Shown here one piece after another: positions 982-21,514 of a DNA stretch of 22,383 nt. The notes beneath the pieces were generated by a model. That model searched no databases and was not told the origin of the DNA. It saw only the letters and a program-made list of their open reading frames with translations. Made by a program: the position numbers and the translations under genes. The DNA is from a virus. Location: the IMG/VR virus record IMGVR_UViG_3300042560_000527, positions 1 to 22,383 of that record, one strand, 5' to 3'. Within the stretch, counting starts at the first letter, position 1. Each line of letters opens with the position of its first letter.

Positions 982-2572
982 CTACCAACAGCGAACCATC
1001 GACCAGCTTTATGCGTGGTTCGAGGCAGGCCATGCAGGCAATCCCTGCCTGGTGCTGCCCACCGGGTCAGGCAAGAGCCACATTGTGGCCGCACTGTGCA
1101 AGGACGCGCTGCAGAACTGGCCAGAGACCGTGGTGCTGATGCTGACGCATGTGAAGGAGCTGATTGAGCAGAATGCCGAGAAGATGCGCCAGCACTGGCC
1201 TGGCGCGCCGCTTGGCATCTACTCGGCCAGCATTGGAAAGAAGCAACTCGGGGAGCCGATCACCTTTGCCGGCATCCAGTCGATCCGCAAGAAGGCCAAG
1301 GAGATCGGCCACGTCGACCTGGTGATCATCGACGAGTGCCACCTGGTCAACCACAAGGACGAGGGTGGCTACCGCCAGTTCCTGGACGACCTGAAGGCCA
1401 TCAACCCTGCGCTGCGTGTCATCGGTCTGACGGCCACACCCTACCGCCTGGGGCACGGCCTGATCACCGACAAGCCTGCGCTGTTCGATGACTTGATCGA
1501 GCCGGTCAGCATCGAGGAACTGGTGTTCAAAGGATACCTGGCCACGCTGCGCAGCAAGGTCACCAGGGCCAAGCTGGACACCTCTGGCGTCCACAAGCGT
1601 GGTGGCGAGTTCATCGAGTCCGAACTGCAGGCCGCCGTGGACACCGACGACAACAACCAGAAGGTGGTGCGCGAGGTCATCGAGTTGGCAGGCGACCGCA
1701 AGGCGTGGCTGGTTTTCTGCACAGGCGTCAAGCACGCGCAGCACGTGGCCGAAGTCCTGCGCCAGCATGGCGTGACGGCCGAGTGCGTGACAGGCGAGAC
1801 GCCGAAGAAGGAGCGAGAGCACCTGCTGACCGAGTTCAAGGCTGGCCGGCTGCGCGCCCTGACCAATGCCAACGTGCTGACCACCGGGTTCGACTACCCT
1901 GACATCGACCTGATCGCCATGCTGCGCCCTACCATGTCGGCCAGCCTGTACGTCCAGATGGCAGGCCGTGGCATGCGGGTCAAGAGCCACATCGACCACT
2001 GCCTGGTGCTGGACTTCGCTGGCGTGGTGGCCACGCATGGGCCGATCACGGCCGTGCAGCCGCCCAAGAAGGCCGGAGAAGGCAATGGCGAGGCACCAGT
2101 CAAAGTCTGCGACAACTGTGGCGAGCTGTGCGCCATTGCCGTGGCCATCTGCCCTGCGTGCCTGACGCCATTCCCTGAGCCGGAGCGCAAGAAGCTGGAG
2201 CTGCGCAACGACGACATCATGGGCCTGGAAGGCAGCGACCTGGAGGTCACGTCCTGGAGCTGGCGCAAGCACGTCAGCCGCGCATCAGGCAAGGAGATGC
2301 TGTCCTGCACCTACTACGGCAACCTGTCCGACAAGCCGATCACCGAGTACCTGCCGGTGCTGCATGAAGGGTATGCCGGCCAGCGTGCGCTGCAGCAACT
2401 CTTCACGATGGCCAATGCTTCAGGAGCGCACCTGGCCGAGGCCGAGCGCATGAGTGACAGCGAAGGCCTGGAGTACCTGGCTACGCAGATGAATGGCAGT
2501 AGGCCGCCAAAGGTCATCGAGTACCGCATGGACGGGAAGTTTCACCGAGTCATCAAGAGGAGCTGGGCATGA
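971..2572 (+). CDS. RadD-like superfamily 2 DNA helicase
   Basis: This is a 533-residue helicase of the DEAD/DEAH (SF2) class. ATG 971 was chosen over the upstream in-frame ATG at 758 because it has a purine-rich AGGAGAAGG ribosome site and begins with the family's usual opening (LRDYQQ). The longer frame would also overlap the previous gene by over 200 bases. Motifs: Walker A PTGSGKS (30-36), motif II DECH (121-124), motif III GLTATP (152-157), motif V LTTGFDYP (303-310), motif VI QMAGRGMR (329-336). A zinc-finger-like Cys group follows (C380, C383, C387, C394, C397). The VKEL segment after motif Ia, the LRPT-x-S-x-SLY segment before motif VI, the C-terminal Cys cluster and the length resemble E. 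coli RadD (YejH), which acts in recombination and fork repair. It probably works with the adjacent nuclease in phage recombination or replication. Confidence 0.92.
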   Translation: MLRDYQQRTIDQLYAWFEAGHAGNPCLVLPTGSGKSHIVAALCKDALQNWPETVVLMLTHVKELIEQNAEKMRQHWPGAPLGIYSASIGKKQLGEPITFAGIQSIRKKAKEIGHVDLVIIDECHLVNHKDEGGYRQFLDDLKAINPALRVIGLTATPYRLGHGLITDKPALFDDLIEPVSIEELVFKGYLATLRSKVTRAKLDTSGVHKRGGEFIESELQAAVDTDDNNQKVVREVIELAGDRKAWLVFCTGVKHAQHVAEVLRQHGVTAECVTGETPKKEREHLLTEFKAGRLRALTNANVLTTGFDYPDIDLIAMLRPTMSASLYVQMAGRGMRVKSHIDHCLVLDFAGVVATHGPITAVQPPKKAGEGNGEAPVKVCDNCGELCAIAVAICPACLTPFPEPERKKLELRNDDIMGLEGSDLEVTSWSWRKHVSRASGKEMLSCTYYGNLSDKPITEYLPVLHEGYAGQRALQQLFTMANASGAHLAEAERMSDSEGLEYLATQMNGSRPPKVIEYRMDGKFHRVIKRSWA

Positions 2573-7880: not shown

Positions 7881-8762
7881 TTACACAGTGTATGAAACAT
7901 CGACACGAATAGTCGTGCCAGCCTTGAAGATCGGTGCGCTTGCTACAAAATTTCCACTGGTGTCTCTGTAGTAGATATAGAGAGCATTTTGGCCGTTATT
8001 GATGAAGAATCCAATGTCTCCTGTAAAAGCATTGGTTGTGTCAACAGCAAAACCTCCACCGCCACACGACGCCCCACAAACAAACGGCAGCGCTTGGAAG
8101 AACACGTTGTTTGTTGGAGAACTGACAGAGCCAACGACCAGCGTTCCACTGATGTGAACAACCCTTCCGATCTTCGTATATCTCAGCGTGTTGCTCGAAA
8201 GCGTGATGCTTCCTGTGTCTGGTGTTGCTGTGACAGTGAATGTTCCTTCTTCATAATCTGCAAGTAACTCACTTGTTCCGGTTCCAGGCGTTGCGGAAAA
8301 GTCGACGCCCTTCCCCGAAGTTCCGACAACCAAGTTGCCAGTTGTCATGGCCACATCGCCAGTCAGGGTTGGAGTGGCAATAGATGGAGAGGTAGCCAAC
8401 ACATTGTTGCCAGTGCCAGTGTTCGTGACGCTGACGACTTCTTTGTTGGCATTCAGTGCCAGCGCAGTTGATGCAGTGAGTGCAGACAGCGTCGAAGTTC
8501 CGCTGACAGACAGGTTCACTCCATTGAGGTCTGCGCCGCCTTCGACGCGCTGCCAGGCGCTTCCATTGAAAGCCACCCAGTCACCGACACCCCAGTTGCT
8601 GATGCCATCCAGGGTTGTGGAGCCTGCCGTTCCGACAACATAGTAGTCGCCCTTCGTACCGACACCGGACGCCAGCGCTGGACTGTTTGTGCTGGCGTTC
8701 CAGGTGCCTTTGTAGTTCAACGCTCCAATGGCGTTGGTAATTGAAGAAACTGTCTTGAGCAT
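7881..8762 (-). CDS. Phage tail fibre / receptor-binding protein
   Basis: A 293-residue Gly/Ser/Thr-rich protein with strong AAGGAG start at 8762. Residues 1-90 have short repeats of phage-fibre type (NYKGTWNASTNSP, KGDYYVVGTAG, VGDWVAFNGSAWQ). A stretch of T/S/A-rich residues at 90-165 could be a beta-helix shaft. LLADYEEGTFTVTA at about 167-180 is a motif that marks the junction to a C-terminal beta-sandwich head domain in many marine and freshwater phage fibres. The C-terminus (RYTKIGRVVHISGTLVVG, ending RVDVSYTV) is a jelly-roll-like domain that would contact receptors. It is the second of two adjacent receptor-binding genes. Lower GC than the structural genes on either side points to horizontal exchange. 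Confidence 0.8.
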   Translation of the reverse strand: MLKTVSSITNAIGALNYKGTWNASTNSPALASGVGTKGDYYVVGTAGSTTLDGISNWGVGDWVAFNGSAWQRVEGGADLNGVNLSVSGTSTLSALTASTALALNANKEVVSVTNTGTGNNVLATSPSIATPTLTGDVAMTTGNLVVGTSGKGVDFSATPGTGTSELLADYEEGTFTVTATPDTGSITLSSNTLRYTKIGRVVHISGTLVVGSVSSPTNNVFFQALPFVCGASCGGGGFAVDTTNAFTGDIGFFINNGQNALYIYYRDTSGNFVASAPIFKAGTTIRVDVSYTV

Positions 8763-8771
8763 GATTTCTCC

Positions 8772-10934
8772 TTATGCGACCTTGACGATGATGCGAGCAC
8801 GACCATCATCTTCGATGGCGATGATTTTGCCGACAGCGATCTGGTACTGCTCAAAAGTTGGATTTGAAACAGCCGAGCCTTTGATCTTGCCACCATCGTT
8901 GACAGGGATGATGTACTGGCCAGGAACAGCGCCGAGCACATTCACAGGAACTTGACCTGCAAAAGCAACACGATCAACCTGTGCCCTGGCAGCTTGGTAC
9001 CGATCCTCCCACGCAGCCAGCGCAATAAGATCATCTTTGGGTTGTTCTTCTGTAAACCAACCATCGCCACCAACATAGGATGGGCTGGTGGATTTGACGA
9101 CAAATGACACGGCATCGCCAAACACGTTTGTCAACTTGCCGTCTGCGTTTACGCCGCAAATATCACCTTTTTCCAGTATAAAGTCACCCGCTTTTGTCAT
9201 GTATTCCGCATAGTCAGTACCAGATGCGTTGACAGTACCGGCTGCGTTGATTGAACGGCTGGTGACTGCATTTTTGTTGACGTACCCAGCGGCATTCGCA
9301 CCGTTGTAACCAGTGGTGTCACCAGCGTAGCTGAAATATGCAGGGTTTCTGAATGTGATCGGATTTCCAGCAGTTCCAGCAGGCGCACAACTGAATGACA
9401 CAAAGCCGCCAGTTGCTGACCCTTGCACAGCAACGTAAGCAGAACCAAACGATTCGATGTAATCGCCGTTCTCATCAGCGTTGATGGAGAGTTCAGCGTT
9501 TTCCGTGTTGCTCATTGACAGCCGTGTTTTCCACGGAGCCGTTGATGCTAGCGAAATCAAAAGCTGTTGCTGCTTGAAGCGACTGCGAGTGTTGTATTGC
9601 TCAAGCTGAATCGCGGCCAGCACCGTGGCATCTGTACCAAACGCATAGTTGTCGCGCCAAGTAGAACCATTCACCAACGAGTTACTGGTGCCATCCAACG
9701 TGCCAGCAGCAAAAGCGTTCTTTTCAACAACACACCACTCACGAGAACCAGTTTCCACCTCCGCAGCGAAATAGTACGGTTGACCTGTCAACTCAAAATA
9801 ATTGTTGAAGTGATAGTTGCCATATCCGTTGTCGGAGATTACGGTGTTTGTGCCGGTCAACCCCAACCCTTCAAAATTGCTGTTCATCACAATGTTGTGA
9901 CGGCAGTAAGTGTCGATGCTGATGGCAGGGCGCGTTGTAGTTGGCCACGCACCAGATACGGTCAGGTGGTCAATGATGTGGTTGCCAGACGCACCAAAAA
10001 TCTTGAACACCTGTTTAACAGGGAGCGTTCCACCAAGTTCTGTCGTCGAAACGTTAACGTCTCGGAAAGTGTTGTAGTAACACCCAATCGAGAACGGAAG
10101 GTCTTGCGAAAACAACTCAAAACCAATGTCAAATGTGGCCGAACCATTTTGGACAAACGCAAAGTCGTCAATGATGGCGTAGTTCATGTTTCTCATGTCT
10201 ACTGCCATACCAGTTGAACCACTGGCGTGGGGCACCATACCCATATGGCGCATCTGAAAACGGGTTCCACCGATTCCTGGCGTAATACCAGCCGATTCAA
10301 TCAGTTTTTGGTTTTGCAGTCGCGGCTTGAGCAGGCTGACTTCACGTCCATCGCCAGTGAAATTGATGCACTTCGGATAAACAGGAAGAACAATCGGATC
10401 GGTAATGTATGTTCCTTTTGGGAAATAAATCGTGCCGCCAGTAGCAGGCAGAGACAAAATTGCGTCGGCAATTGCCGTTGTGTCATCTGTTACTCCATCG
10501 CCAACAGCATTGAATGGAGCATTCTGCACGTTGATGATTGGAAGCAGCGCACTTCCAACAGTGCCTGCCGGATAAGCAACATCATGCGCAAAATCAATTT
10601 GTCCAGCAGATACTTTGCTGATGACTGCGTCGCTGTAGCGCTCAGTTGCCTCTGCAGCACTGTAGACAACGCTGCCGTTCTTGTTTTGCACTTGAATGCT
10701 GTAGTCGCTGTTGACGTACAGGCGCGCAGGCGTTCCGCTGTTAGCTGGGTAGCCACCACGAGTGCGAATGGGCTGTGCCGCAGGCAGGGTAAGAGCAGCA
10801 TCCCAGTAGACGTTGATTGGATTGCCAATCGGCTGCAGGTTTGCAACACCGATCCAGACGTAGCCATCCTCAAGGGGCTGGCCATCGATGTCCGTGAAGA
10901 TCGGGTAGGTGGGTTGAATGGAAAGTGCGGTCAT
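8772..10934 (-). CDS. Tailspike with pectate-lyase-like beta-helix and C-terminal chaperone-like domain
   Basis: A 720-residue tailspike. Residues 1-95 match the P22-type head-binding domain (PIFTDIDGQPLEDGYVWIG, then GNPINVYWDAALTLP, GYPANSGTPARLYVN), which attaches to the gp10/gp4 tail. Residues 140-180 carry the pectate-lyase superfamily entry NAVGDGVTDDTTAI and GGTIYFPKGTY, followed by the right-handed beta-helix that degrades or binds surface polysaccharide. From about residue 573 the sequence DYAEYMTKAGDF...SYVGGDGWF and the Gly/Lys-rich tail resemble the Peptidase_G2/intramolecular chaperone auto-processing domain seen in phage endosialidase-like and freshwater phage spikes. Start has AGGAGA seven bases upstream. 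The depolymerase activity and any self-cleavage are inferred from fold and motifs. Confidence 0.9.
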   Translation of the reverse strand: MTALSIQPTYPIFTDIDGQPLEDGYVWIGVANLQPIGNPINVYWDAALTLPAAQPIRTRGGYPANSGTPARLYVNSDYSIQVQNKNGSVVYSAAEATERYSDAVISKVSAGQIDFAHDVAYPAGTVGSALLPIINVQNAPFNAVGDGVTDDTTAIADAILSLPATGGTIYFPKGTYITDPIVLPVYPKCINFTGDGREVSLLKPRLQNQKLIESAGITPGIGGTRFQMRHMGMVPHASGSTGMAVDMRNMNYAIIDDFAFVQNGSATFDIGFELFSQDLPFSIGCYYNTFRDVNVSTTELGGTLPVKQVFKIFGASGNHIIDHLTVSGAWPTTTRPAISIDTYCRHNIVMNSNFEGLGLTGTNTVISDNGYGNYHFNNYFELTGQPYYFAAEVETGSREWCVVEKNAFAAGTLDGTSNSLVNGSTWRDNYAFGTDATVLAAIQLEQYNTRSRFKQQQLLISLASTAPWKTRLSMSNTENAELSINADENGDYIESFGSAYVAVQGSATGGFVSFSCAPAGTAGNPITFRNPAYFSYAGDTTGYNGANAAGYVNKNAVTSRSINAAGTVNASGTDYAEYMTKAGDFILEKGDICGVNADGKLTNVFGDAVSFVVKSTSPSYVGGDGWFTEEQPKDDLIALAAWEDRYQAARAQVDRVAFAGQVPVNVLGAVPGQYIIPVNDGGKIKGSAVSNPTFEQYQIAVGKIIAIEDDGRARIIVKVA

Positions 10935-13900
10935 CGTTGGTTCTCCTGGTCAAATTGTCCTGCAGCTTGCATGGATTGCACAAGCCACCTCTCGCGCCAG
11001 CTCATCTCGCGCGGCATCTTGGCAGCATCGGCAAAGCGCCGGAAAGCTGCAGACATGGCCACAGCTCTCACTGTGGCCGCGTTTGGAGTAGTCCTGGTCG
11101 CGCCTTCGACGGCCAAGCGTTGAAATTCAGGCGAGGCAATCAGCTCGTCTGCTGCCTTGGCCACCTGGGGCTTGACGCCCTTGCTCAAGGCCGCCGTCAG
11201 GCCAGACGCAATGCCAGCGCCAGGCAGACCCATCGCCGTGGTGCCTGCCTCAATGGGCAGGCCAATGGCTGCACGCTTGGCCACGCCAAAGACGTTGCCA
11301 ATCAGCGTGTCAGCGCCCTGCAGCTCCTGCTGGACGGCCTGAATGCGGCCGGTGGTGATGCGCTCGCGGGTGGCTTTGCGCACGTTGTCGGCTACTCGGT
11401 AGAGGTCCGACAGTGACTTTCTGGCCGGCTGCGGCAGGTTGTTCATCAGCGCCGCATAGGCCTGCTTGTTTTGCAGCAGACCCTCGTACCAGTTGGCGTA
11501 GGTGTTGAAATTCAGCGCGCCGTTCTGCGTGGCTTTGCCGAAGGCCGTGTTCAGGGCCGAAGCCGCCACCATTTGGCGCATGTCCTGCGGGATGGCCTTC
11601 AGGATGTTGACCAGCTTGTCGGCATCGCCCTTGGTCAGCGCCTGGGTGGCTGTCGACAGCTTGGTGACCAGGCTCTGGTCGAGCTGCTTGCCGAACAGCG
11701 ACACCATGTCGTCCTCGAAGCCCTTGCGCATGGCCACCAGGCTCTTGGCCAGACGGTACTGCTCGCCGCGGCCGACCGTCTCTGCCAGGTTGAACTGGTC
11801 GTCGTCGATCAGTGCGTACAGGCGCTTGGCAAGACCAGTGTCTGCATCTGCGAACGGTCCCTGCTGGCGCGCAGCCGCGCCGATGTCGCGCCGCACGTCA
11901 TCGATCAGCGCATAGGTCGGGTAGCGCATGCCGACCACATTGCCGGCTTCGTCCTTGATCTCGCGTGGCGTCAGCTTGCGCCGCACCGACTTCTCCAGGC
12001 TGGAGAGGTTCTGGGGACCATCCAGGTCCAGCGCACGCTGCTCGACGAACATCAGCACGTTGTCAGCGGGGCCGCGGGTTTGGGCTGGCACGTTGGCGCG
12101 CAGATCGTCATAGACCTTGTTGGCGCGCGTTTCCAGCGTGGTGACCGTCTGGTCCAGATTCGTGCGCACCGCCTGGTTCATCCGGCTGAGGTCGGTCATG
12201 CCGCCGATGCGGGTGATCAGGTCATCTGCCTGCTTGCCGACCTGCTCCAGGCCAGCGATCTCGGCTGCCCTGGCCTGGCTGCCAGGCACCGACTTGACTG
12301 CCTGCGCCAGTTCACGGTAGGCCTGGTTCGATGTCAGGTGGTCCGGCTGTAGATACTGCTCGATCTTGAGCCTGCGCGCAGCCTCCAGCACCTTGGGGTC
12401 AGGTGCGGCCTGGCCAGCCAAGATCGTGGTGGCTCGGCCTGCGCCAAAGCCGCCACCGGCTGCCTGGCGGGTGGTTGCTGCCAGCTCTTCTGCCGTCATC
12501 ATGGCCGGACCGGCTGCTGGAGCTGCTGCAGCCGCAGGAGCCACTGGAGCGCCAGGAGCCATTGCCGTGCCCATCGGAGCGCCAGGTGCCGCTGCTGCAG
12601 GCGTCACAGGGGCCGCTGCAGCCCCAGCAGGGGCCGCAGGAGCCGCGCCAGGAGCTGCTGCAGGGGTAGGTGGCACCTCGCCGCCTCGAACAGCTCTGAC
12701 GGCCTGCGGAATGCGTGTGACGGCCTGGCCAGCGCCGCCGAGTGCGCCAGCCAGTGCCACCTCGCCAGTGTCGAAGCGGCCGCCAGTGGCAGCCTGGGTG
12801 GCCTCGATGCCGGCCTGAGTTGCGCCACCGGCAACGATAGCGCCAGGGATGGTGGTTGCACGGCCGGCAGGAGTGAAAGCTGCCAGCGCGCCAGCAGCAC
12901 GCGGGATGTCGCTGACCTGGAAGCCAGGCTTGATGGCATACATCTGGCCGTCGATGGACGACTGCAGCACGAAGTTGCCCTTCTCGTCCTGGCTGACTTT
13001 GACGCCAGGGAAGTTGGCCTGGATGACCTGGACCGTCTCGGCCGGGTTGGTCATCATCGTGCCCAGGGCCGACTTGAAGCTGGCCATGCTGAAGGTGTTC
13101 AGCTCCGGCATGCTGGCCCAGTCAGGCAAAGCCTGCGTGGTGGGAGTGGCGCGCTCGGTGCCAGTGACAGCCTCGCGAATGCCACCCAGCACACCCATCG
13201 GTTCGGTCTTCTGGAGTTGGAATCCGGCAGGCACTTTGGCCATGCCATTGGCGACATCACGCTCCAGCTCCATCATCTCGTCGCGGGTCATGCGGCCGGT
13301 GCGATAGGCCTCCAGGACCGGAGCCGGCAGCTCGGGAATGACAGGCCGTGCGCCCTGGGGTTGAGCCTGGCCACGCAATGCAGCGCCGCGTGGCAGCATG
13401 ATCATGCCAGCCTTGACATCGTTCTCGAACTCGGCTGCTTCTTCAGCCGTCATCTGTCCGGTGCTGTAGGCCTGGTAGACCCTGGCAATCGCATCCTGCG
13501 GTACAGAAGCCATGCTGCTGGCACCCAGAGCACGTTGAAACGTGCTGACCGTGCCGCCCTCCGCAATGGTTGGCTGCTGTGCAGGCACGGTCTGCGCAGT
13601 CAGGTCGCGCACGCCTTGGGAGACGCGCTGCATGTAGGCCTTGGTGCGTGGTCCCCAGTTCTTGGGATCAGTGCCTCCGTGGTACTCAGCAGCCGCCAGC
13701 ACGATGTTGCCCTGGTTGCGGTCCAGCGACTCTTTGAGCAGCCGGCCAGCAGCCTCGGCCGCGTTCTCTGGGCTGAGGTAGGCGTCGATGCCGTACTTGT
13801 CCAGCACCGCCTTGCGGGTGGCCGGGATGATCTGGAATGGCGTGCGAGCGCCGGCCTCTGACACCTGGTCAGCGTTGGAGCGCTCACCGCGTGTGAGCAC

Positions 13901-14005
13901 CGAGACCAGCAGGCCGCTGGGCAGCCCGAGCTTCTGCTCGGTGTTGGCTGCCAGGTCAGACCAGAATGGGTCTTTGTAGCTGGTTGGAATGTCTCTTGTG
14001 GCCAT
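10931..14005 (-). CDS. Ejected internal virion protein with N-terminal lytic transglycosylase domain
   Basis: At 1024 residues, the largest product. Residues about 15-130 are an SLT-type lysozyme-like domain: GLLVSVLTRGERS with putative catalytic E41, then AGARTPFQIIPATR (54-64, the GA-x-x-x-FQI signature), then LAAAEYHGG (103-111) corresponding to the AYNAG motif. Residues about 445-500 are a Pro/Ala-rich linker (flexible). The rest is long helical, with ATGGRFDTGEVALAGALGG membrane-like stretches about residues 395-430. In P22 gp16 and T7 gp16, such proteins are ejected before DNA and form or cut a path through the cell wall. It follows two other ejection-like genes. The start at 14005 has only a weak ribosome site (GAGATAAGAC), which suggests coupling to the upstream gene that ends three bases away. 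Confidence 0.85.
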   Translation of the reverse strand: MATRDIPTSYKDPFWSDLAANTEQKLGLPSGLLVSVLTRGERSNADQVSEAGARTPFQIIPATRKAVLDKYGIDAYLSPENAAEAAGRLLKESLDRNQGNIVLAAAEYHGGTDPKNWGPRTKAYMQRVSQGVRDLTAQTVPAQQPTIAEGGTVSTFQRALGASSMASVPQDAIARVYQAYSTGQMTAEEAAEFENDVKAGMIMLPRGAALRGQAQPQGARPVIPELPAPVLEAYRTGRMTRDEMMELERDVANGMAKVPAGFQLQKTEPMGVLGGIREAVTGTERATPTTQALPDWASMPELNTFSMASFKSALGTMMTNPAETVQVIQANFPGVKVSQDEKGNFVLQSSIDGQMYAIKPGFQVSDIPRAAGALAAFTPAGRATTIPGAIVAGGATQAGIEATQAATGGRFDTGEVALAGALGGAGQAVTRIPQAVRAVRGGEVPPTPAAAPGAAPAAPAGAAAAPVTPAAAAPGAPMGTAMAPGAPVAPAAAAAPAAGPAMMTAEELAATTRQAAGGGFGAGRATTILAGQAAPDPKVLEAARRLKIEQYLQPDHLTSNQAYRELAQAVKSVPGSQARAAEIAGLEQVGKQADDLITRIGGMTDLSRMNQAVRTNLDQTVTTLETRANKVYDDLRANVPAQTRGPADNVLMFVEQRALDLDGPQNLSSLEKSVRRKLTPREIKDEAGNVVGMRYPTYALIDDVRRDIGAAARQQGPFADADTGLAKRLYALIDDDQFNLAETVGRGEQYRLAKSLVAMRKGFEDDMVSLFGKQLDQSLVTKLSTATQALTKGDADKLVNILKAIPQDMRQMVAASALNTAFGKATQNGALNFNTYANWYEGLLQNKQAYAALMNNLPQPARKSLSDLYRVADNVRKATRERITTGRIQAVQQELQGADTLIGNVFGVAKRAAIGLPIEAGTTAMGLPGAGIASGLTAALSKGVKPQVAKAADELIASPEFQRLAVEGATRTTPNAATVRAVAMSAAFRRFADAAKMPREMSWRERWLVQSMQAAGQFDQENQR
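12510..12670 (-). repeat. Pro/Ala-rich low-complexity linker in the SLT ejection protein
   Basis: Imperfect GCNGCN/CCNGCN triplets encode alternating Ala/Pro/Gly (about residues 445-498 of the 1024-residue protein). It looks like a flexible linker between the N-terminal half, which carries the transglycosylase domain, and the helical body. The opposite strand is open but shows only a reflected Ala/Gly frame. Confidence 0.7.
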
Positions 14006-14008
14006 GTC

Positions 14009-15793
14009 TTATCTCGCAAACGTGGTGCGATCTTGGCTGGCACGAGCGATGATTGCCTGCACCTGCTCTCTCGTCAAACCAAGAGACAGCAATTCTCTAG
14101 AAAGATCACCAACACCAAGCTCCAACTGTTCCTTGATTGCTGTAGTCAGTCGAGGATCGTTCAAGACGCGCTTGACCAACTGTTCAAGCTGTTGAGTCTT
14201 GGCAGCCACATCAGCAGGCGCAGCGGCCGCTGGCGCAGGCGCTGCAGCCGGAGCAGGCTGCGCGAATGCACCAGCTCCAGGCATTGGCACCGTAGACGCG
14301 CCAGAAGGTACTGCAGCGCCTGCTGCAGGCATGGGTGATGCAGGTACTGCAGGAGCAGGTGCTGGTGCAGCAGGCACAGACATTGTCGGAGCCGGTGTTG
14401 CAGGAGCAGGGGCCGCACCAGGCACAGCACCAGTCTCAGGCTGCGCCCAGCGCATGTAGCCTCGGCCGGATACCGCACGGCCGGCCTGTGTGGCTGCCAG
14501 GTCTTGCGCACGCTGGTCCATGAACTGGCGCGCGAAGTCGACATAAGTGGTGCCACGAGGCACCTGGATGCCACCAATCTCAATGTCGCGGGTGGCTCGA
14601 CCGAGCGATCCGACTGAGTTCACCCATTCAGACTTTGCACCCTCAGACACTGCCTCGTACTGTGCCATCTTGGCCATGCCGCGCAGGAATGATGCGACTG
14701 TCTTGGCGTCTGCGTTCTCAGCCGGGAAACCTTTCAGAGCCAGTTCAATGTCGCGGTCAGTGGCCGGACCAGGAGGCAGCGACTTGATGGCCTGCGTGTT
14801 GCGCAGCCTGACGTATTCCTGACGTGTCTGCGTCCATGCGTCCTGGTTGCCGGTCGCGTTGCGAATCCACGCATTGATGCCACTAGCTGCGCCATAGCCG
14901 CCGCCTTGCTGTTCCAGCCTGGACGCCAGGTCCAACATGCGGCCAGCAGACTGTTCTCCAGCAACTGCAGCCACTGCGGATTCGTTGACAATTTTAGTGG
15001 CGCTCGGATCGAGCTGGCCGCCCTTCTGGTTCAGCTCAAAGAGCCTCAGCTCAACGTCAGACTGCAGGCGGTCGCGGTCCAATCGCAAGCGATTTTGATC
15101 CAGCACCAGCCGGCCAGCACGGTCTGCGATCTGGCTGTCCAGATTGCGAATGTTGGCCGCGGTCTGCGTGTTCTCCAGCGCCAGGCGGGTTGGAGTGTTG
15201 GCCGTGATCAGCTCTTCCTTGGTTGCACCAGCCTCTCCAGTGCGAATCTCGGCCGGTGCCTTCAGCGCCTGGATGGACGAGGTCAACACCTTGTCGCCGC
15301 CAGGCACGCCGGCCAGCATGATGCCGATGGTTTTCTGCGCGCTCTGTGGGCTAACCTCGGCCATCTGTGCCCAGGTCTCGTAGGCCTTGGCTTGCTGCTC
15401 ACGTCCGGCATTGCGTTCAGCAGTGGCGCGCTCTTTCAAGAGCTGGATGCCGATCTGTGGCTGGTTCGAGCTGAAGGCCGACATGACCTGACCACCGAAG
15501 CGCAGCTCGTTTTCTTGGCGATCCTTGGACAGCGTCTCCCAGTTGGCGCGCATGCTATCAGCCTCTGCTTTGGGCAGCAGCATGGCCACGTTGGTGAAAT
15601 CACGCGCAGTCGGGTTTGGGTTCTGAATCAGAGCCTGGACCTGCGTCTGCAGTGCTTGTCTGCGCTGCAGGTCGGCCTCCTGGGCCTGGCGCTGTGCAGA
15701 GATGTCAGCGATGGTGGCACCGATCTTGAAGCCGGATAGTGCCGCTTCAAAAGGGCTTTGGACATTCAGTTGGTAGTTGATTGGCTGGACCAT
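14009..15793 (-). CDS. Ejection protein (DNA transfer protein, P22 gp20-like position)
   Basis: A 594-residue protein starting MVQPINYQLN with AGGGAG upstream. Residues 15-60 are a helix-rich and QR-rich segment (AQRQAQEADLQRRQALQTQVQ), then a long helical, Ala/Gln-rich body without Cys or known motifs. Residues about 450-530 form a Pro/Ala low-complexity linker, and the last 60 residues are helical with KTQQLEQLVKRVLNDPRL. This composition (helical, Ala/Gln-rich, no globular enzyme) is that of the ejected proteins encoded between gp7 and gp16 in P22-like phages. The gene order here (S74-tailed protein, this gene, SLT protein) supports this position. I cannot show homology directly. Confidence 0.75.
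   Translation of the reverse strand: MVQPINYQLNVQSPFEAALSGFKIGATIADISAQRQAQEADLQRRQALQTQVQALIQNPNPTARDFTNVAMLLPKAEADSMRANWETLSKDRQENELRFGGQVMSAFSSNQPQIGIQLLKERATAERNAGREQQAKAYETWAQMAEVSPQSAQKTIGIMLAGVPGGDKVLTSSIQALKAPAEIRTGEAGATKEELITANTPTRLALENTQTAANIRNLDSQIADRAGRLVLDQNRLRLDRDRLQSDVELRLFELNQKGGQLDPSATKIVNESAVAAVAGEQSAGRMLDLASRLEQQGGGYGAASGINAWIRNATGNQDAWTQTRQEYVRLRNTQAIKSLPPGPATDRDIELALKGFPAENADAKTVASFLRGMAKMAQYEAVSEGAKSEWVNSVGSLGRATRDIEIGGIQVPRGTTYVDFARQFMDQRAQDLAATQAGRAVSGRGYMRWAQPETGAVPGAAPAPATPAPTMSVPAAPAPAPAVPASPMPAAGAAVPSGASTVPMPGAGAFAQPAPAAAPAPAAAAPADVAAKTQQLEQLVKRVLNDPRLTTAIKEQLELGVGDLSRELLSLGLTREQVQAIIARASQDRTTFAR
14205..14440 (-). repeat. Pro/Ala-rich low-complexity linker in the second ejection protein
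   Basis: A stretch of Ala/Pro repeats (about residues 451-529 of the 594-residue protein) of the same type as in the adjacent SLT protein. It precedes the helical C-terminus. The similarity between the two neighbouring linkers may reflect a shared flexible-tether requirement or local duplication. Confidence 0.7.
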
Positions 15794-15804: not shown

Positions 15805-16722
15805 TTATACCTTGCCGTAGTCGACGGTGAGGTAGCCACCGGACTCGCCCACAGCGTCAGGATAGACGCCCAGCACTTCTTGCGCCATTAGGCCGACCTG
15901 TCGGCCGCCACCCCAGACGTACTCGAACTCGTAGACATTCAGACCGTCCGGCCTGGTGCCCACGCGCGTGATGTTCTTCTTCAACCGGATGTCGCTGAAG
16001 ATGTTGCCGAAGCCTGGCGTACCGACTTTTGCACCGTACTGCATGCCCAGGAACTGGGCCGGCAGGTTGAGCACGTTGGCAAAAGCCTGACCCTGCGCCA
16101 GCTCTGCGCCAGCTCGTGCAGCACCTTGCTGTCCCATCAGGTTGGCGATGTCTGCGCCAGTGCGTAGGCCGGCTGTTGCCGTGCCTGCAGCCGATGCCTG
16201 GCCAAGTTGCGCGATGTTCTGCTGGGTGGTCTGACCGAGTGCAGTCAAGCCGCCGAGACGGCCGTATTGCTTCTCGATCTCGGACTGCAGCATCTGAGGC
16301 CGGAACTGAGCCAGCGCTGCCTGGATGTTGCCTCCACGCAGGCCGCCAGTGGCCGAAGCACGCTGCAGCAGCGCCTCTTCACCAGCGCGCACCTGCGCCT
16401 GGTAGCCTGCACCACCCTCGATTCCTGCAATGGCCGCCTGCTGGGCCTCTGGGCCGCGCAGACCGAGCAGTGCCTGCTGCTGTTCCAGCGCAGGTGCGCC
16501 GGCTGCTGCATAGGGCTGCAGGCCAGTGATGGCACCTGTGCCAGCCGTGACGTAGGGCTTGAGAATCTCCTGGACAGCATCGAACTGTCGACGCTGTTCT
16601 GCAATGCCAGCTTCGCTGGCAGCGACCTGCGCGCCAGCAGCATCGCTGGCCGCATTGCTTTGCATGATGCCGCCGACGACTTGCGTGCCGCCGACGACCA
16701 ATGCGGTTACTGGATCAGGCAT
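15805..16722 (-). CDS. DNA transfer/ejection protein with C-terminal S74-like segment (P22 gp7-like position)
   Basis: A 305-residue protein with AAGGAG seven bases before ATG 16722. Residues 1-25 include VTALVVGGTQVVGGIM, Gly-rich and membrane-active in look, followed by Ala/Gln-rich helices (residues 25-230). From residue 243 it ends SDIRLKKNI, then GLNVYEFEYVW, GLMAQEVLGVYPDAV, and YLTVDYGKV. These are the motifs of the peptidase S74 intramolecular chaperone domain, but the domain stops right at VDYGKV and has no trailing helical bundle. Proteins with this layout are commonly annotated as phage DNA transfer proteins. It begins the set of three ejection genes. Whether the short S74-like tail self-cleaves is not clear. 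Confidence 0.82.
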   Translation of the reverse strand: MPDPVTALVVGGTQVVGGIMQSNAASDAAGAQVAASEAGIAEQRRQFDAVQEILKPYVTAGTGAITGLQPYAAAGAPALEQQQALLGLRGPEAQQAAIAGIEGGAGYQAQVRAGEEALLQRASATGGLRGGNIQAALAQFRPQMLQSEIEKQYGRLGGLTALGQTTQQNIAQLGQASAAGTATAGLRTGADIANLMGQQGAARAGAELAQGQAFANVLNLPAQFLGMQYGAKVGTPGFGNIFSDIRLKKNITRVGTRPDGLNVYEFEYVWGGGRQVGLMAQEVLGVYPDAVGESGGYLTVDYGKV

Positions 16723-17666: not shown

Positions 17667-18002
17667 TCAGGTGATCTCGCGGCCTGAAATGCGCAGCGTC
17701 AGCGAGGTGGCGTTACTGGCAATGGTGCTGATGAAGGCACCAGGGTCCAGCTCCTGGCCGACCAGCTCAGGGCACAGGTAGGTCTCACCAGGAACGACAG
17801 TGCGGTCGTCGATGATCAGGTTGCTGTTGCCAGCGCTGCCGCCGACTTGCACCAGGTTCACGCTGAACGTGCGGTTCACCGTGTCGGTGTTGGTGACAGT
17901 GGCCTTGTCGATCAGTGCCTTGGCAGCCGTGGCCGTGTACTGCGTGGTCTGCACGGCCTCCATCTGCTTGGGAGGCACAAGGGTTTTTACGATGACGGTC
18001 AT
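17667..18002 (-). CDS. Small beta-rich phage protein, possible decoration protein
   Basis: A 111-residue protein with GGAGG upstream of ATG 18002. Residues alternate strands and turns (TATAAKALIDKATVTNTDTV, then FSVNLVQVGG, then NLIIDDRTVVPGETYLCPELV, LDPGAFISTIA, LTLRISGREI). The pattern of hydrophobic strands with V-P-G-E-T and G-x-x-L-x-x-G-x-F reads as a small immunoglobulin-like or jelly-roll domain, seen in capsid decoration proteins and some tail proteins. It overlaps the needle candidate gene by 4 bases (ATGA), suggesting a common assembly step. Function is inferred from fold appearance and location only. Confidence 0.65.
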   Translation of the reverse strand: MTVIVKTLVPPKQMEAVQTTQYTATAAKALIDKATVTNTDTVNRTFSVNLVQVGGSAGNSNLIIDDRTVVPGETYLCPELVGQELDPGAFISTIASNATSLTLRISGREIT

Positions 18003-18868
18003 TGGATACCTCCGATGTTGTTTGCGACAGTGAGAATGATCGACGGAATGCCTGGATGTGGTGCTACAGGACCAGAGGCCAGAAGCTGCACGCCAAGATT
18101 GCTCACGCTGAACATGACCTCGACGTAGTCTCCTGCCTTCAAGTTGAAAAACAAATTCAGCGCCACAAACACTTCAGCATTGTTGCCCTGAATTCGCACT
18201 TGGCTGGCTGAATTGGTGACATCAGCTCCATTTAGTCTGAACCACACATAGAACTCTTCAGCCGTTGCGACTGTGGAGTCAAGCTGAACAGAAATCTGAA
18301 AGTTATAGATGCCTTCGGTGTCAACGTAGACGCGCGAAGTTGGTGTGCCAAGATAGACGCCGTGACTCAGGTCTGTGGTGTTGAATGTGATGGCCTTGGC
18401 CGTGTTGATGGCCGTGGCTGTCTGCGTGGTGGTGTCGTAGAACGAGCCATACCGGCTGCGTTTGAACTCGCGCTTTGGGGGCAGCATCTGCAACCCCTCG
18501 ACAGCATCAGCCAGCCTGGACAGCAGCGCCATTGCCTGGTTGGCTTTATTCTCTGCTGACGCGATACTGACTGCAGTTTCCTGCGCCAGCATGGCGATCT
18601 GGTCTAGCGCCTGCGTGCCTTTGATGTCGCTGATTGAGCAGCAGACAGCCACTTCTTGCGCCAGCGCAGCGATCTGTCCAAGTGCCTGCACAGCCCTGGC
18701 ATCGGCATTGCCGGCCAAAATGGTGGCAGCCTGCACCGCGTCTGGCGCAATGGAAGCCGCCACTGCGAACAGGTTCTCGAACTGCTTGATCTGCTCGAAG
18801 TCCTTCAGGAACGTGGCGAGCTGATCTCGGGTCAATCCGAGAGGTGGGACGCGTGGATTGGTGGCCAT
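17999..18868 (-). CDS. Tail needle or fibre with helical repeats and C1q/TNF-like C-terminal domain
   Basis: A 289-residue protein. Residues 10-40 (LTRDQLATFLKDFEQIKQF) form a helix that recurs in podovirus fibre proteins. Residues 61-125 are three helical copies at exact 25-residue spacing, suggesting a trimeric coiled coil. From about residue 140 (YGSFYDTTTQTA) to the end it reads as a C1q/TNF-like beta-sandwich (TNTDL-like turns, VYVDTEGIYNFQISV, FYVWFRLNG, LNLFFNLKAGDYVEV). It lies directly after the gp10 homologue, the place of the tail needle gp26 in P22; the Sf6 needle also ends in a TNF-like knob. Overlap with the gp10 stop is one base. A needle identity is an inference; a fibre is the alternative. 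Confidence 0.75.
   Translation of the reverse strand: MATNPRVPPLGLTRDQLATFLKDFEQIKQFENLFAVAASIAPDAVQAATILAGNADARAVQALGQIAALAQEVAVCCSISDIKGTQALDQIAMLAQETAVSIASAENKANQAMALLSRLADAVEGLQMLPPKREFKRSRYGSFYDTTTQTATAINTAKAITFNTTDLSHGVYLGTPTSRVYVDTEGIYNFQISVQLDSTVATAEEFYVWFRLNGADVTNSASQVRIQGNNAEVFVALNLFFNLKAGDYVEVMFSVSNLGVQLLASGPVAPHPGIPSIILTVANNIGGIQ
18494..18688 (-). repeat. Three 25-residue helical repeats inside the needle candidate
   Basis: Residues 61-75 (QALGQIAALAQEVAV), 86-100 (QALDQIAMLAQETAV) and 111-125 (QAMALLSRLADAVEG) align at exactly 25 residues (75 bases) spacing. The first two copies are near-identical and the third has diverged. The phase suggests coiled-coil turns rather than a DNA-level function. 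Confidence 0.75.
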
Positions 18869-20271
18869 CAGTAGAGCAGCCCTTCAATCTGCGCTTCCAG
18901 GCGTGCGAAGGCCAGATGTGCATCGCTGTCGCCGCGGAAGCGCTGGATGCGCCAGTTGCGCATGCTGCCTTGCTGGAACCAGGCCAGGCGCTTTTTGGTG
19001 TTGCCAATGGTGCCGACTCGAATGTATCGATCTTGGCTCCATGACTGACCGTCCAATGAGTAACTGGTGCTGATTTGTGGATCAAGACCAAGTGCCACGC
19101 GTCCGGTCAAGCTGACCAGCTCCAGCTCGTGGAACAGCGCGCCGTTGCCCTCGTTGTAGGCGATCAGCGTGCCGAACTCCCAGCGCACCTTCTGACCCCA
19201 GTGCGTTCCGATGGTGTCCACCAGGTAGCCGATGTTGTTCGACTGCGGATCGCCCACCAGCCACTTGTCATAGGCCCAGACCAGGTTGCGCGCACGGTAC
19301 TGTGCGAAGCCGACGACCGTGGTCGTCAGCGTGAACCAGACCAGCTCACCCAGCGCCTCGCTGGCCGCCGCGTCATAGACCAGCGTGCGGTCTGGCAGGT
19401 GGACATAGAGATGCTGGTGCGCCTTGTCGTTGCGCGCCTCCAGCTTCACCGTGGCGAGCTGCGCCTCGGTGTACTGCAGCAAAATCTCATCGATCTCCTG
19501 CGTGCTGATTTTGGTGGCCGTAGCATTTGCGCCCATGTAGATGCCTGGCGCTTCATTGCGGCCGCTGCCCAGGAAGGCAACCTGCTCCATGAAAACGCAG
19601 CAGCCAAACGTGCCGATGACGCCTTTCTGAATCTGCGCGCCATCAATGCGCTGGAACGGGAAGAAGTCGCCGCCCACGTTGTCGAACACCTCGATGGTGT
19701 TGCGGTTCAGCGCGTAGACCTCGTTGCGCAGCTTGATCAGCGCCACCACCGGATCAGGGTCGACTTCACTGGAACCGTACTTCAGTGGATTGACCTGCAG
19801 CGGGTTAGACAGTTCTGTGACGACCAGGCTGGAGCCATCGGTGGTCATGAAGTAGCCGTCCACCCAGACCACATCAAGGACCAGCCCCAGGTCAGGATCG
19901 GTCACCTGCGTGAGTGCGCCGTTCCAATAGTAGAGCCGGCCACCAGAGGCAATGGCCAAGCGGTCGAAGCTGTAGTCGAAGGACACCAGCGTGTTGACCG
20001 GGCCGCCGACATCGCCCAGCACCGTCACAGTGCCGTTGCTTGCCACTGTCACGAGCTTGGTGCCCATGACGCGGTAACAGGTGCCATTCCAGTTGATGCC
20101 GCCGCGGTCGATGCCTGGGCCGCTGCCGTTGGCGACAATGCCATCGCCAGGACGCAGGAAACCAGTGCTGATGCCGCTGTTCTTGGGCACCGGCACCATG
20201 TTGACAGGATAGGACGTGCGGAAGTCCGGTCCGTTGTCGGTGTAGATGCCGTTCAGGATTGGAATCTGCAT
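18868..20271 (-). CDS. P22 gp10-like packaged DNA stabilization protein
   Basis: A 467-residue protein. The N-terminus (MQIPILNGIYTDNGPDFRTSYPVNM) with PVNM at 22-25 and LRPGDGI about 39-45 matches the start of P22 gp10 (YLPVNM, then SGYLRSFPGI), and NWNGTCYRVMGTKLVTV aligns with its next segment. Later repeats of short strands (RLAIASGGRLYYWNG, DGYFMTTDGSSLVV, GSGRNEAPGIYMG) indicate the beta-propeller-like body of gp10. In P22 six copies close the portal-gp4 ring and carry the needle and tailspikes. Its place after gp4 and before the needle candidate agrees. The length is the same as P22 gp10 (about 470). The start is the ATG at 20271. Confidence 0.9.
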   Translation of the reverse strand: MQIPILNGIYTDNGPDFRTSYPVNMVPVPKNSGISTGFLRPGDGIVANGSGPGIDRGGINWNGTCYRVMGTKLVTVASNGTVTVLGDVGGPVNTLVSFDYSFDRLAIASGGRLYYWNGALTQVTDPDLGLVLDVVWVDGYFMTTDGSSLVVTELSNPLQVNPLKYGSSEVDPDPVVALIKLRNEVYALNRNTIEVFDNVGGDFFPFQRIDGAQIQKGVIGTFGCCVFMEQVAFLGSGRNEAPGIYMGANATATKISTQEIDEILLQYTEAQLATVKLEARNDKAHQHLYVHLPDRTLVYDAAASEALGELVWFTLTTTVVGFAQYRARNLVWAYDKWLVGDPQSNNIGYLVDTIGTHWGQKVRWEFGTLIAYNEGNGALFHELELVSLTGRVALGLDPQISTSYSLDGQSWSQDRYIRVGTIGNTKKRLAWFQQGSMRNWRIQRFRGDSDAHLAFARLEAQIEGLLY

Positions 20272-21031: not shown

Positions 21032-21514
21032 TCAGTTGTACTCGATGGGGCCGTCCGGGCCTGCAGTGACCGGATCGACCGGCTGACTCAGGAACGGGTT
21101 GTCGTACACGCGCCACGGCTTGTTGCCGGCACCGGATGGCATCGTGTTCGGGAATTGCTGCTCAAGCGGAGCAGTGGCGCGCTGCAGCAGCGTGTCGTAG
21201 CCCTGCTTGGCCGTGGCCTTGGTCTCGTTCATGACCTGCTTGCCGTAGCTCGGTGCCAGGCGCACGCCCAGATTGCAGATGATGGTCTCATAGGCCGAGT
21301 CCGGCACGTTGGTCTGCTCGTCGATGCTGCCGTCCTGGGGGCTGGCCGGGATCGGATAGCCGAGTCGGATTCCTTTGCCGTTCCAGTCGGCCATCATGGC
21401 ATCGAGCCTGCGCCTGGCCGTCTCAAGCTGCTCCGGCTGCAGGTCGAAGACGTAGGACGCAAGGCCGATCTCCTCGAAGGCTGCATAGACGAACTGGCGC
21501 TTGCTGTATCCCAT
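21032..21514 (-). CDS. P22 gp4-like tail accessory factor
   Basis: A 160-residue protein with a good AGGAGA ribosome site. The sequence matches the P22 gp4 tail-accessory family. It begins RQFVYAAFEEIGLAS, then QPEQLETARRRLDAMMADWNGKGIRLGYP, whose RLDAMMADW corresponds to DLEAMMAEW in P22. It continues ETIICNLGVRLAPSYGK (compare NLACRIAPDY) and ends MPSGAGN (compare MPTGSGN). In P22 twelve copies bind beneath the portal and seal the DNA-filled head before gp10 and the needle are added. P22 gp4 also has a reported peptidoglycan hydrolase activity, which I cannot judge here. It is placed as in P22, before gp10. Confidence 0.92.
   Translation of the reverse strand: MGYSKRQFVYAAFEEIGLASYVFDLQPEQLETARRRLDAMMADWNGKGIRLGYPIPASPQDGSIDEQTNVPDSAYETIICNLGVRLAPSYGKQVMNETKATAKQGYDTLLQRATAPLEQQFPNTMPSGAGNKPWRVYDNPFLSQPVDPVTAGPDGPIEYN

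Follow-up and report, generated by a model that had tools for sequence, protein, structure and literature searches.

The gene directly downstream of the gp10-like hub gene in the window, the 22,383-nucleotide stretch of viral DNA analysed here (IMG/VR record IMGVR_UViG_3300042560_000527), probably codes for the central needle of a short tail of the P22 type, or for a functional counterpart of it (Table 1). The virus belongs to a group of podophages of freshwater bacteria. Our best reading is that of a needle by position and build, without detectable homology to the P22 gp26 and Sf6 gp9 needles; since neither anchor nor shaft shows such homology, we do not claim membership of the gp26/gp9 family. 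The encoded protein consists of an N-terminal anchor, a helical shaft of 25-residue units and a C1q/TNF-fold knob; among relatives the anchor is nearly constant, and both the number of units and the type of tip vary.

Table 1. Needle-position gene, its parts and neighbouring genes in the window.
Feature	Position	Strand	Basis or remark
gp4-like tail accessory factor	21032..21514	minus	P22_Tail-4, PF11650
gp10-like hub / DNA stabilisation protein	18868..20271	minus	Phage_stabilise PF11134, E 1e-33
Needle-position gene	17999..18868	minus	ORF from ATG at 18868, 289 aa; anchor, 25-residue-unit shaft and C1q/TNF-fold knob
N-terminal anchor, residues 10-35, LGLTRDQLATFLKDFEQIKQFENLFA	18764..18841	minus	Common to nearly all gp10-adjacent genes of sampled relatives, with any tip
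Helical shaft, residues 36-128	18485..18763	minus	Predicted helices 42-75 and 82-126, blocks at about pLDDT 47-64
25-residue unit 1, residues 61-85	18614..18688	minus	Self-comparison, junction motif
25-residue unit 2, residues 86-110	18539..18613	minus	13/25 (52%) identical to unit 1
Degenerate unit 3, residues 111-128	18485..18538	minus	4-5/18 identities
C1q/TNF-fold knob, residues 135-288	18005..18466	minus	AlphaFold2 model, Foldseek
111-aa protein, predicted jelly roll	17667..18002	minus	Downstream of needle-position gene; found in relatives examined
gp7-like ejection protein	15805..16722	minus	phrog_598 across residues 8-168; C-terminal S74 chaperone domain
594-aa protein in gp20 (ejection) position	14009..15793	minus	Position only
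gp16-position protein, 1024 aa, SLT transglycosylase domain	10931..14005	minus	Domain match and position
Tailspike	8772..10934	minus	Base domain in 16/16 long relatives, weakly in Sf6

The gene occupies the needle slot beside a gp10-like hub

In the direction of transcription, the window carries the gp4-like gene, two small genes, the gp10-like gene, the needle-position gene and the gene for a 111-residue protein, followed by two or three small genes and those for the gp7-like, 594-residue, 1024-residue SLT and tailspike proteins. This order matches that of P22 (4-10-26-14-7-20-16) and Sf6 (7-8-9-10-11-12-13-14), and the gene therefore occupies the needle slot, that of gp26 and of gene 9, respectively. 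The initial annotation had placed it after gp10, and indeed it lies directly 3′ of the hub gene and ahead of the ejection genes; the interval given there (17999-18868) is exact, with the gene running on the minus strand (18868..17999).

The gp10-like gene (20271..18868) matches the PHROG head closure Hc3 in a profile search (E 7e-98), and its product is 27-28% identical to P22 gp10 and Sf6 gp8 across ~460 residues. The start codon of the needle-position gene lies within its stop (TGATG), a one-base overlap also seen between Sf6 genes 8 and 9. Searches of PHROG and of PDB sequences with the 289-residue protein returned no match. A separate needle gene elsewhere in the genome had been named beforehand as the finding that would speak against the assignment, and none of the P22/Sf6 type was found in the window or in 16 long relatives: the needle PHROGs 1219 and 1030 matched Sf6, which served as the positive control, but nothing in the window, the complete genome MW202867 or the 15 other relatives, contigs of 30-45 kb.

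Residues 243-291 of the gp7-like protein, at its C-terminus, form a chaperone domain of the Peptidase_S74 / endosialidase type (PF13884), which is odd for an ejected protein.

The C-terminal knob is confidently predicted as a C1q/TNF fold

At the sequence level, the knob gave two weak matches in a Pfam scan to E 1, BclA_C (E 0.01) and C1q (E 0.04). The AlphaFold2 monomer model of the knob is a jelly roll, with blocks over residues 141-280 at pLDDT 83-96, and Foldseek matched this model to 4-1BBL with E 1.5e-8 and to the C1q domain of Caprin-2 with a TM score of 0.81. The predicted C1q/TNF-like end is thus borne out, weakly in sequence and strongly in fold. Further Foldseek neighbours were BclA, the central-spike knob of phi812 (PDB 9eul, E 7e-8) and a portal-tail chain of cyanophage A4 (9k09_A, E 1.6e-7), the latter two from other tail types and only 12-14% identical to the window knob. 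We reject the fold alone as evidence for a needle, because other phage proteins bear the same domain, among them proteins from the structural regions of unrelated phages, for example phiAC-1 and Limnohabitans phages.

One relative (L015, 5492-6286) has an in-frame deletion of 25 residues inside the knob (SRVYV...STVA is gone) in an otherwise nearly identical protein; either the knob is broken or the assembly is at fault. As the deletion sits in the knob, we rejected the reading of this shorter protein as one that has lost a repeat.

The shaft is built and varied in 25-residue steps

The AlphaFold2 monomer, built with 41 homologues, places low-confidence helices at residues 14-39 (with a one-residue break), 42-75 and 82-126, in agreement with the helical N-terminal part described initially. 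The self-match of residues 36-130 is highest at an offset of 25, where none of 5000 shuffled sequences reached it, and only 0.14% of the shuffles equalled this score at any offset. A junction motif, [DE]x[KR]xxQA[LM], recurs at residues 56, 81 and 106, an exact spacing of 25. Of the triplicate repeat originally reported, the period, two good copies and the three in-phase junction motifs are upheld, but the third copy has decayed, and in the DNA only copies 1 and 2 are recognisable as repeats (74%). The hydrophobic spacing of the unit can be read as 7+7+11, and a hydrophobic period near 3.5-3.57 was observed in the long shaft of one relative (L019).

Relatives were collected as 79 IMG/VR loci by search with the protein and as 80 loci by search with gp10, the latter chosen irrespective of the downstream gene; nearly all are metagenomic contigs. 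Shaft lengths, measured from QFExL to the tip boundary in 91 distinct shafts, fell at 54-55, 77-82, 101-106, 130-133 and 155 residues, with one outlier of 87, and their concentration at a period of 25 was 0.954 (0.905 after clustering at 70% identity). The expectation that the number of units would differ among relatives was accordingly confirmed, with lengths mostly near 55, 80, 105, 130 and 155 residues. L018 carries one extra unit and L019 two; since adjacent L019 units are 81-83% identical in DNA, their duplication is recent. On the gp10 tree, a quick tree of 116 rows on which all change counts depend, unit number changes at least 28 times, compared with 45 for shuffled labels.

Similarities to and differences from known needles

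The Sf6 gp9 needle (PDB 3RWN, PF16532) resembles the window gene in its slot, its one-base overlap with the preceding gene and its succession of a helical shaft and a TNF-like knob. It differs in that its anchor and knob have no detectable sequence similarity to the window protein and its shaft consists of plain heptads rather than 25-residue units. Comparison of the window N-terminus with gp26/gp9 gave an hhalign probability of 0.4% and no phmmer or BLASTP match, and the Sf6 knob family PF16532 was not matched by the window protein in the Pfam scan to E 1, while Sf6 itself matches at 1e-118. Hence, of the Sf6-like needle proposed in the initial annotation, the slot, the helical N-terminal part, the C1q/TNF tip and the variation in unit number stand, but kinship with the Sf6 needle is not supported. 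Published Sf6-type knobs moreover differ by at most 4.9% (PMC3741392), whereas the tip in the freshwater group is often exchanged.

P22 gp26 occupies the same slot and adjoins a P22-type gp10 hub, and length variation is also known among its relatives; P22-like needles have 11-16 heptads and two unrelated tips (PMC3741392). It shares no detectable homology with the window protein, and the freshwater tip is C1q-like, sometimes replaced by other domains or by a separate gene. P22 particles whose needles carry HS1 or foldon tips still infect, with slower potassium release, and such swapped or replaced tips do not set host specificity (PMC3741392). For this reason, cell-surface binding by the tip of the window needle should not be taken for granted.

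In SU10, the needle gene (gp18) is numbered after the nozzle gene (gp17), and six short fibres of gp16 are bound to the nozzle (PMC9509320). SU10 gp18 resembles the window gene in following the nozzle gene, and it joins a coiled coil, which the window shaft may also form, to an unrelated C-terminal tip domain; its coiled coil, unlike the window shaft, is reported to be homologous to the P22 needle, and its tip is a β-prism and not C1q (PMC9509320). Also close in build is a 'cerebellin-1 domain' protein of an uncultured phage from Manatee Spring (MW202867.1, complete 34.5-kb genome), which has the same anchor, slot and kind of knob as the window protein but an insert domain between anchor and knob, and which has been annotated just by its C1q-like domain. 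A literature search for C1q tail needles, for hendecads in needles and for the freshwater group found nothing relevant in the sources covered, which leave out most subscription journals.

Relatives retain the anchor and exchange the tip

Where gp10 is complete, the gene behind it begins within a few bases of the gp10 stop and encodes the anchor LTRDQLAxFLxxxEQIxQFExLF or a close variant of it in nearly all loci (140 of 145). In three further loci with a distant gp10 (L075, L076 and L157), the same knob follows a different N-terminus, of the type IPAPRVxxxDxxTGxMSxxWYRFF, a second anchor type (WYRFF motif) in the same slot. What lies behind the anchor is a C1q knob attached directly, an insert domain (followed by a knob in some relatives and not in others), a long fibre, or no knob. 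A weak match to a cement protein was obtained for the insert domain; the long versions (669-939 residues in total) combine this domain with a fibre, in one case ending in a Peptidase_S74 chaperone; and the short knobless proteins comprise 96-140 residues. Tip type changes 28 times on the gp10 tree, compared with 40 for shuffled labels, with two 'other tip' rows scored partly by absence of the extra gene described below. Tip exchange, like the change in unit number, thus recurs, with some signal remaining in the gp10 lineage.

These observations bear on the main rival of the needle reading, a side fibre, in which six trimers would be anchored outside the gp10 hexamer, the C-terminal module would bind a receptor, and the channel would be closed by gp10 or by an unrecognised protein. 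Fibre-like C-termini such as the long versions, one of them with an S74 chaperone, tip exchange inferred about 28 times and reminiscent of receptor-binding fibres, the nozzle-bound fibres of SU10 and the recurrence of the knob in unrelated phages all favour such a fibre, and the missing gp26/gp9 kinship and the low-confidence monomer shaft weigh against a needle. In addition, the slot alone is no proof of a needle, since the protein after gp10 in MW202462, a distant phage, has a knob but no helical shaft is visible in it. Nevertheless, we consider the side fibre the less likely reading: the position is that of the needle in P22, Sf6 and SU10, no other needle-family gene was found in the window or the long relatives, and shaft length is quantised, as expected of a register-keeping rod, to which the needle reading adds that P22 accepts foreign tips. 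A separate tailspike base is also always present, on a different gene in the window and in 16 of 16 long relatives, and the side position therefore seems to be occupied whatever the tip.

The tailspike base domain is followed by differing C-termini in the 16 relatives. The base in L173, whose needle is knobless, is a stand-alone adaptor of 167 residues (1315-1818, minus strand) with separate tail genes behind it; fused and split forms thus seem to occur for the tailspike as well. The small tail proteins after the tailspike in the window (7881-8762, minus strand) and in L173 (591-1304, minus strand) share an N-terminal module, MLKTVSSIxNAxGALNYKGTWNASTNSPALASG, and differ in their C-terminal parts.

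Several records deserve comment. The contig IMGVR_UViG_3300027659_000061 (45049 bp; L045 and L059) holds two versions each of the needle gene and the tailspike base near both ends, either from chimeric assembly or from real duplication. MW202867.1, MW202462.1 and MW202475.1 are titled Myoviridae yet have P22-like stabilisation/ejection gene sets, and PQ492659.1 (39 kb) is filed under Inoviridae; all four labels look wrong. A search for relatives in bacterial genomes, made to find the host, found none.

Nearly all knobless relatives carry an additional gene for a predicted jelly roll

Behind the knobless proteins, whether short or with the insert domain, lies an extra gene for a 111-residue protein (MAF..ITPTKLGQA...), which overlaps the end of the knobless gene by about 16-19 bases or starts 1 base beyond it. 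Of the non-redundant loci selected by gp10, 22 of the 24 knobless ones have it, including two (L128 and L149) that the automatic pattern missed and that were assigned by inspection, as against 0 of 42 with a knob or long fibre (Fisher p 1.5e-15, uncorrected for relatedness). The two knobless cases that lack it (L102 and L155) both bear other C-terminal sequence. We rely on phylogenetically independent pairs in which the knob was scored independently of the extra gene: 11 went in the expected direction, 0 in the opposite one and 3 were equal (median p about 0.001), with classes assigned by regular expressions that misfiled L100, L118, L127, L128 and L149, as corrected in the tree scoring.

The model of the extra protein is a compact jelly roll (pLDDT 90) with weak similarity to trimeric viral projection and cement domains (IBDV VP2 and KHP40 cement; TM about 0.5). 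It is about 30% identical to the 111-residue protein encoded next to the needle-position gene in the window, which suggests an old tandem duplication behind the two genes.

From the mutual exclusivity of fused knob and extra gene, we infer that the extra protein may be the missing tip of the knobless needles. Alternatively, and in our judgement somewhat less probably, it is an unrelated decoration protein carried along by a single recombining cassette. Cassette recombination would also yield linkage, and the related 111-residue gene of the window type occurs independently of tip type; the sequence ...QVLTWLSM, with which these knobless proteins conservedly end and which is explained by a Shine-Dalgarno sequence and start codon, offers no evidence of docking. 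What speaks against hitch-hiking is that the exclusivity recurs across the tree, as the independent pairs show, in addition to the strength of the overall count. A docking peptide, ...VL(T/E/A)W(L/M)S, at the end of knobless proteins before the extra gene was considered and rejected, since the underlying DNA is the Shine-Dalgarno sequence (CAGGTG) and ATGGCTTTC start of the overlapping gene. A programmed frameshift joining shaft to extra protein was likewise discarded, as the overlaps read contain no slippery site.

Jelly rolls and C1q-like knobs adorn phage heads too, and the weak likenesses of the extra protein to IBDV VP2 and KHP40 cement and of the insert domain to a cement protein would fit a head fibre decorating the capsid or neck whose gene follows gp10 by chance, with the 111-residue jelly rolls as capsid cement. 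This appears very improbable, given that the constant linkage and the start/stop overlap are with gp10 and not with coat genes, and that the exclusivity of fused knob and extra gene ties the jelly roll to the needle-position gene.

Proposed organisation of the needle

Under the preferred needle reading, the protein would form a trimer that uses about the first 40 residues of each chain to dock into or onto the gp10 hexamer, presumably seated on its axis and plugging the channel. The helical shaft of 25-residue units, probably a coiled coil, would carry the tip outward by about 37 Å per unit at 1.5 Å per residue, the tip in the window phage being the C1q/TNF-fold knob. Needle length would change through gain or loss of whole units, with the helix register kept. 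The tip would be an exchangeable module that is either part of the same protein (in cis) or, in relatives lacking a knob, comes as the translation-coupled 111-residue jelly-roll protein. More tentatively than the needle assignment itself, we propose a plug-and-play needle, in which a conserved hub anchor bears a rod that grows or shortens in 25-residue steps and a tip that is either fused or caps the rod in trans.

The freshwater group adds to the variation known among P22-like needles through its 25-residue steps, far more frequent tip exchange and, probably, a tip from a separate gene. With this assignment, a gene left as 'hypothetical' or 'cerebellin-1 domain' by annotation pipelines acquires a name. 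In P22, a swapped tip, or even a foldon in its place, is tolerated but alters the kinetics of ejection (PMC3741392). The freshwater group constitutes a large natural series on one hub type: with the same anchor, the shaft ranges from roughly 55 to 155 residues and the tip, fused or apparently separate, is of at least four kinds. Such a series allows comparative tests of the roles of needle length and tip.
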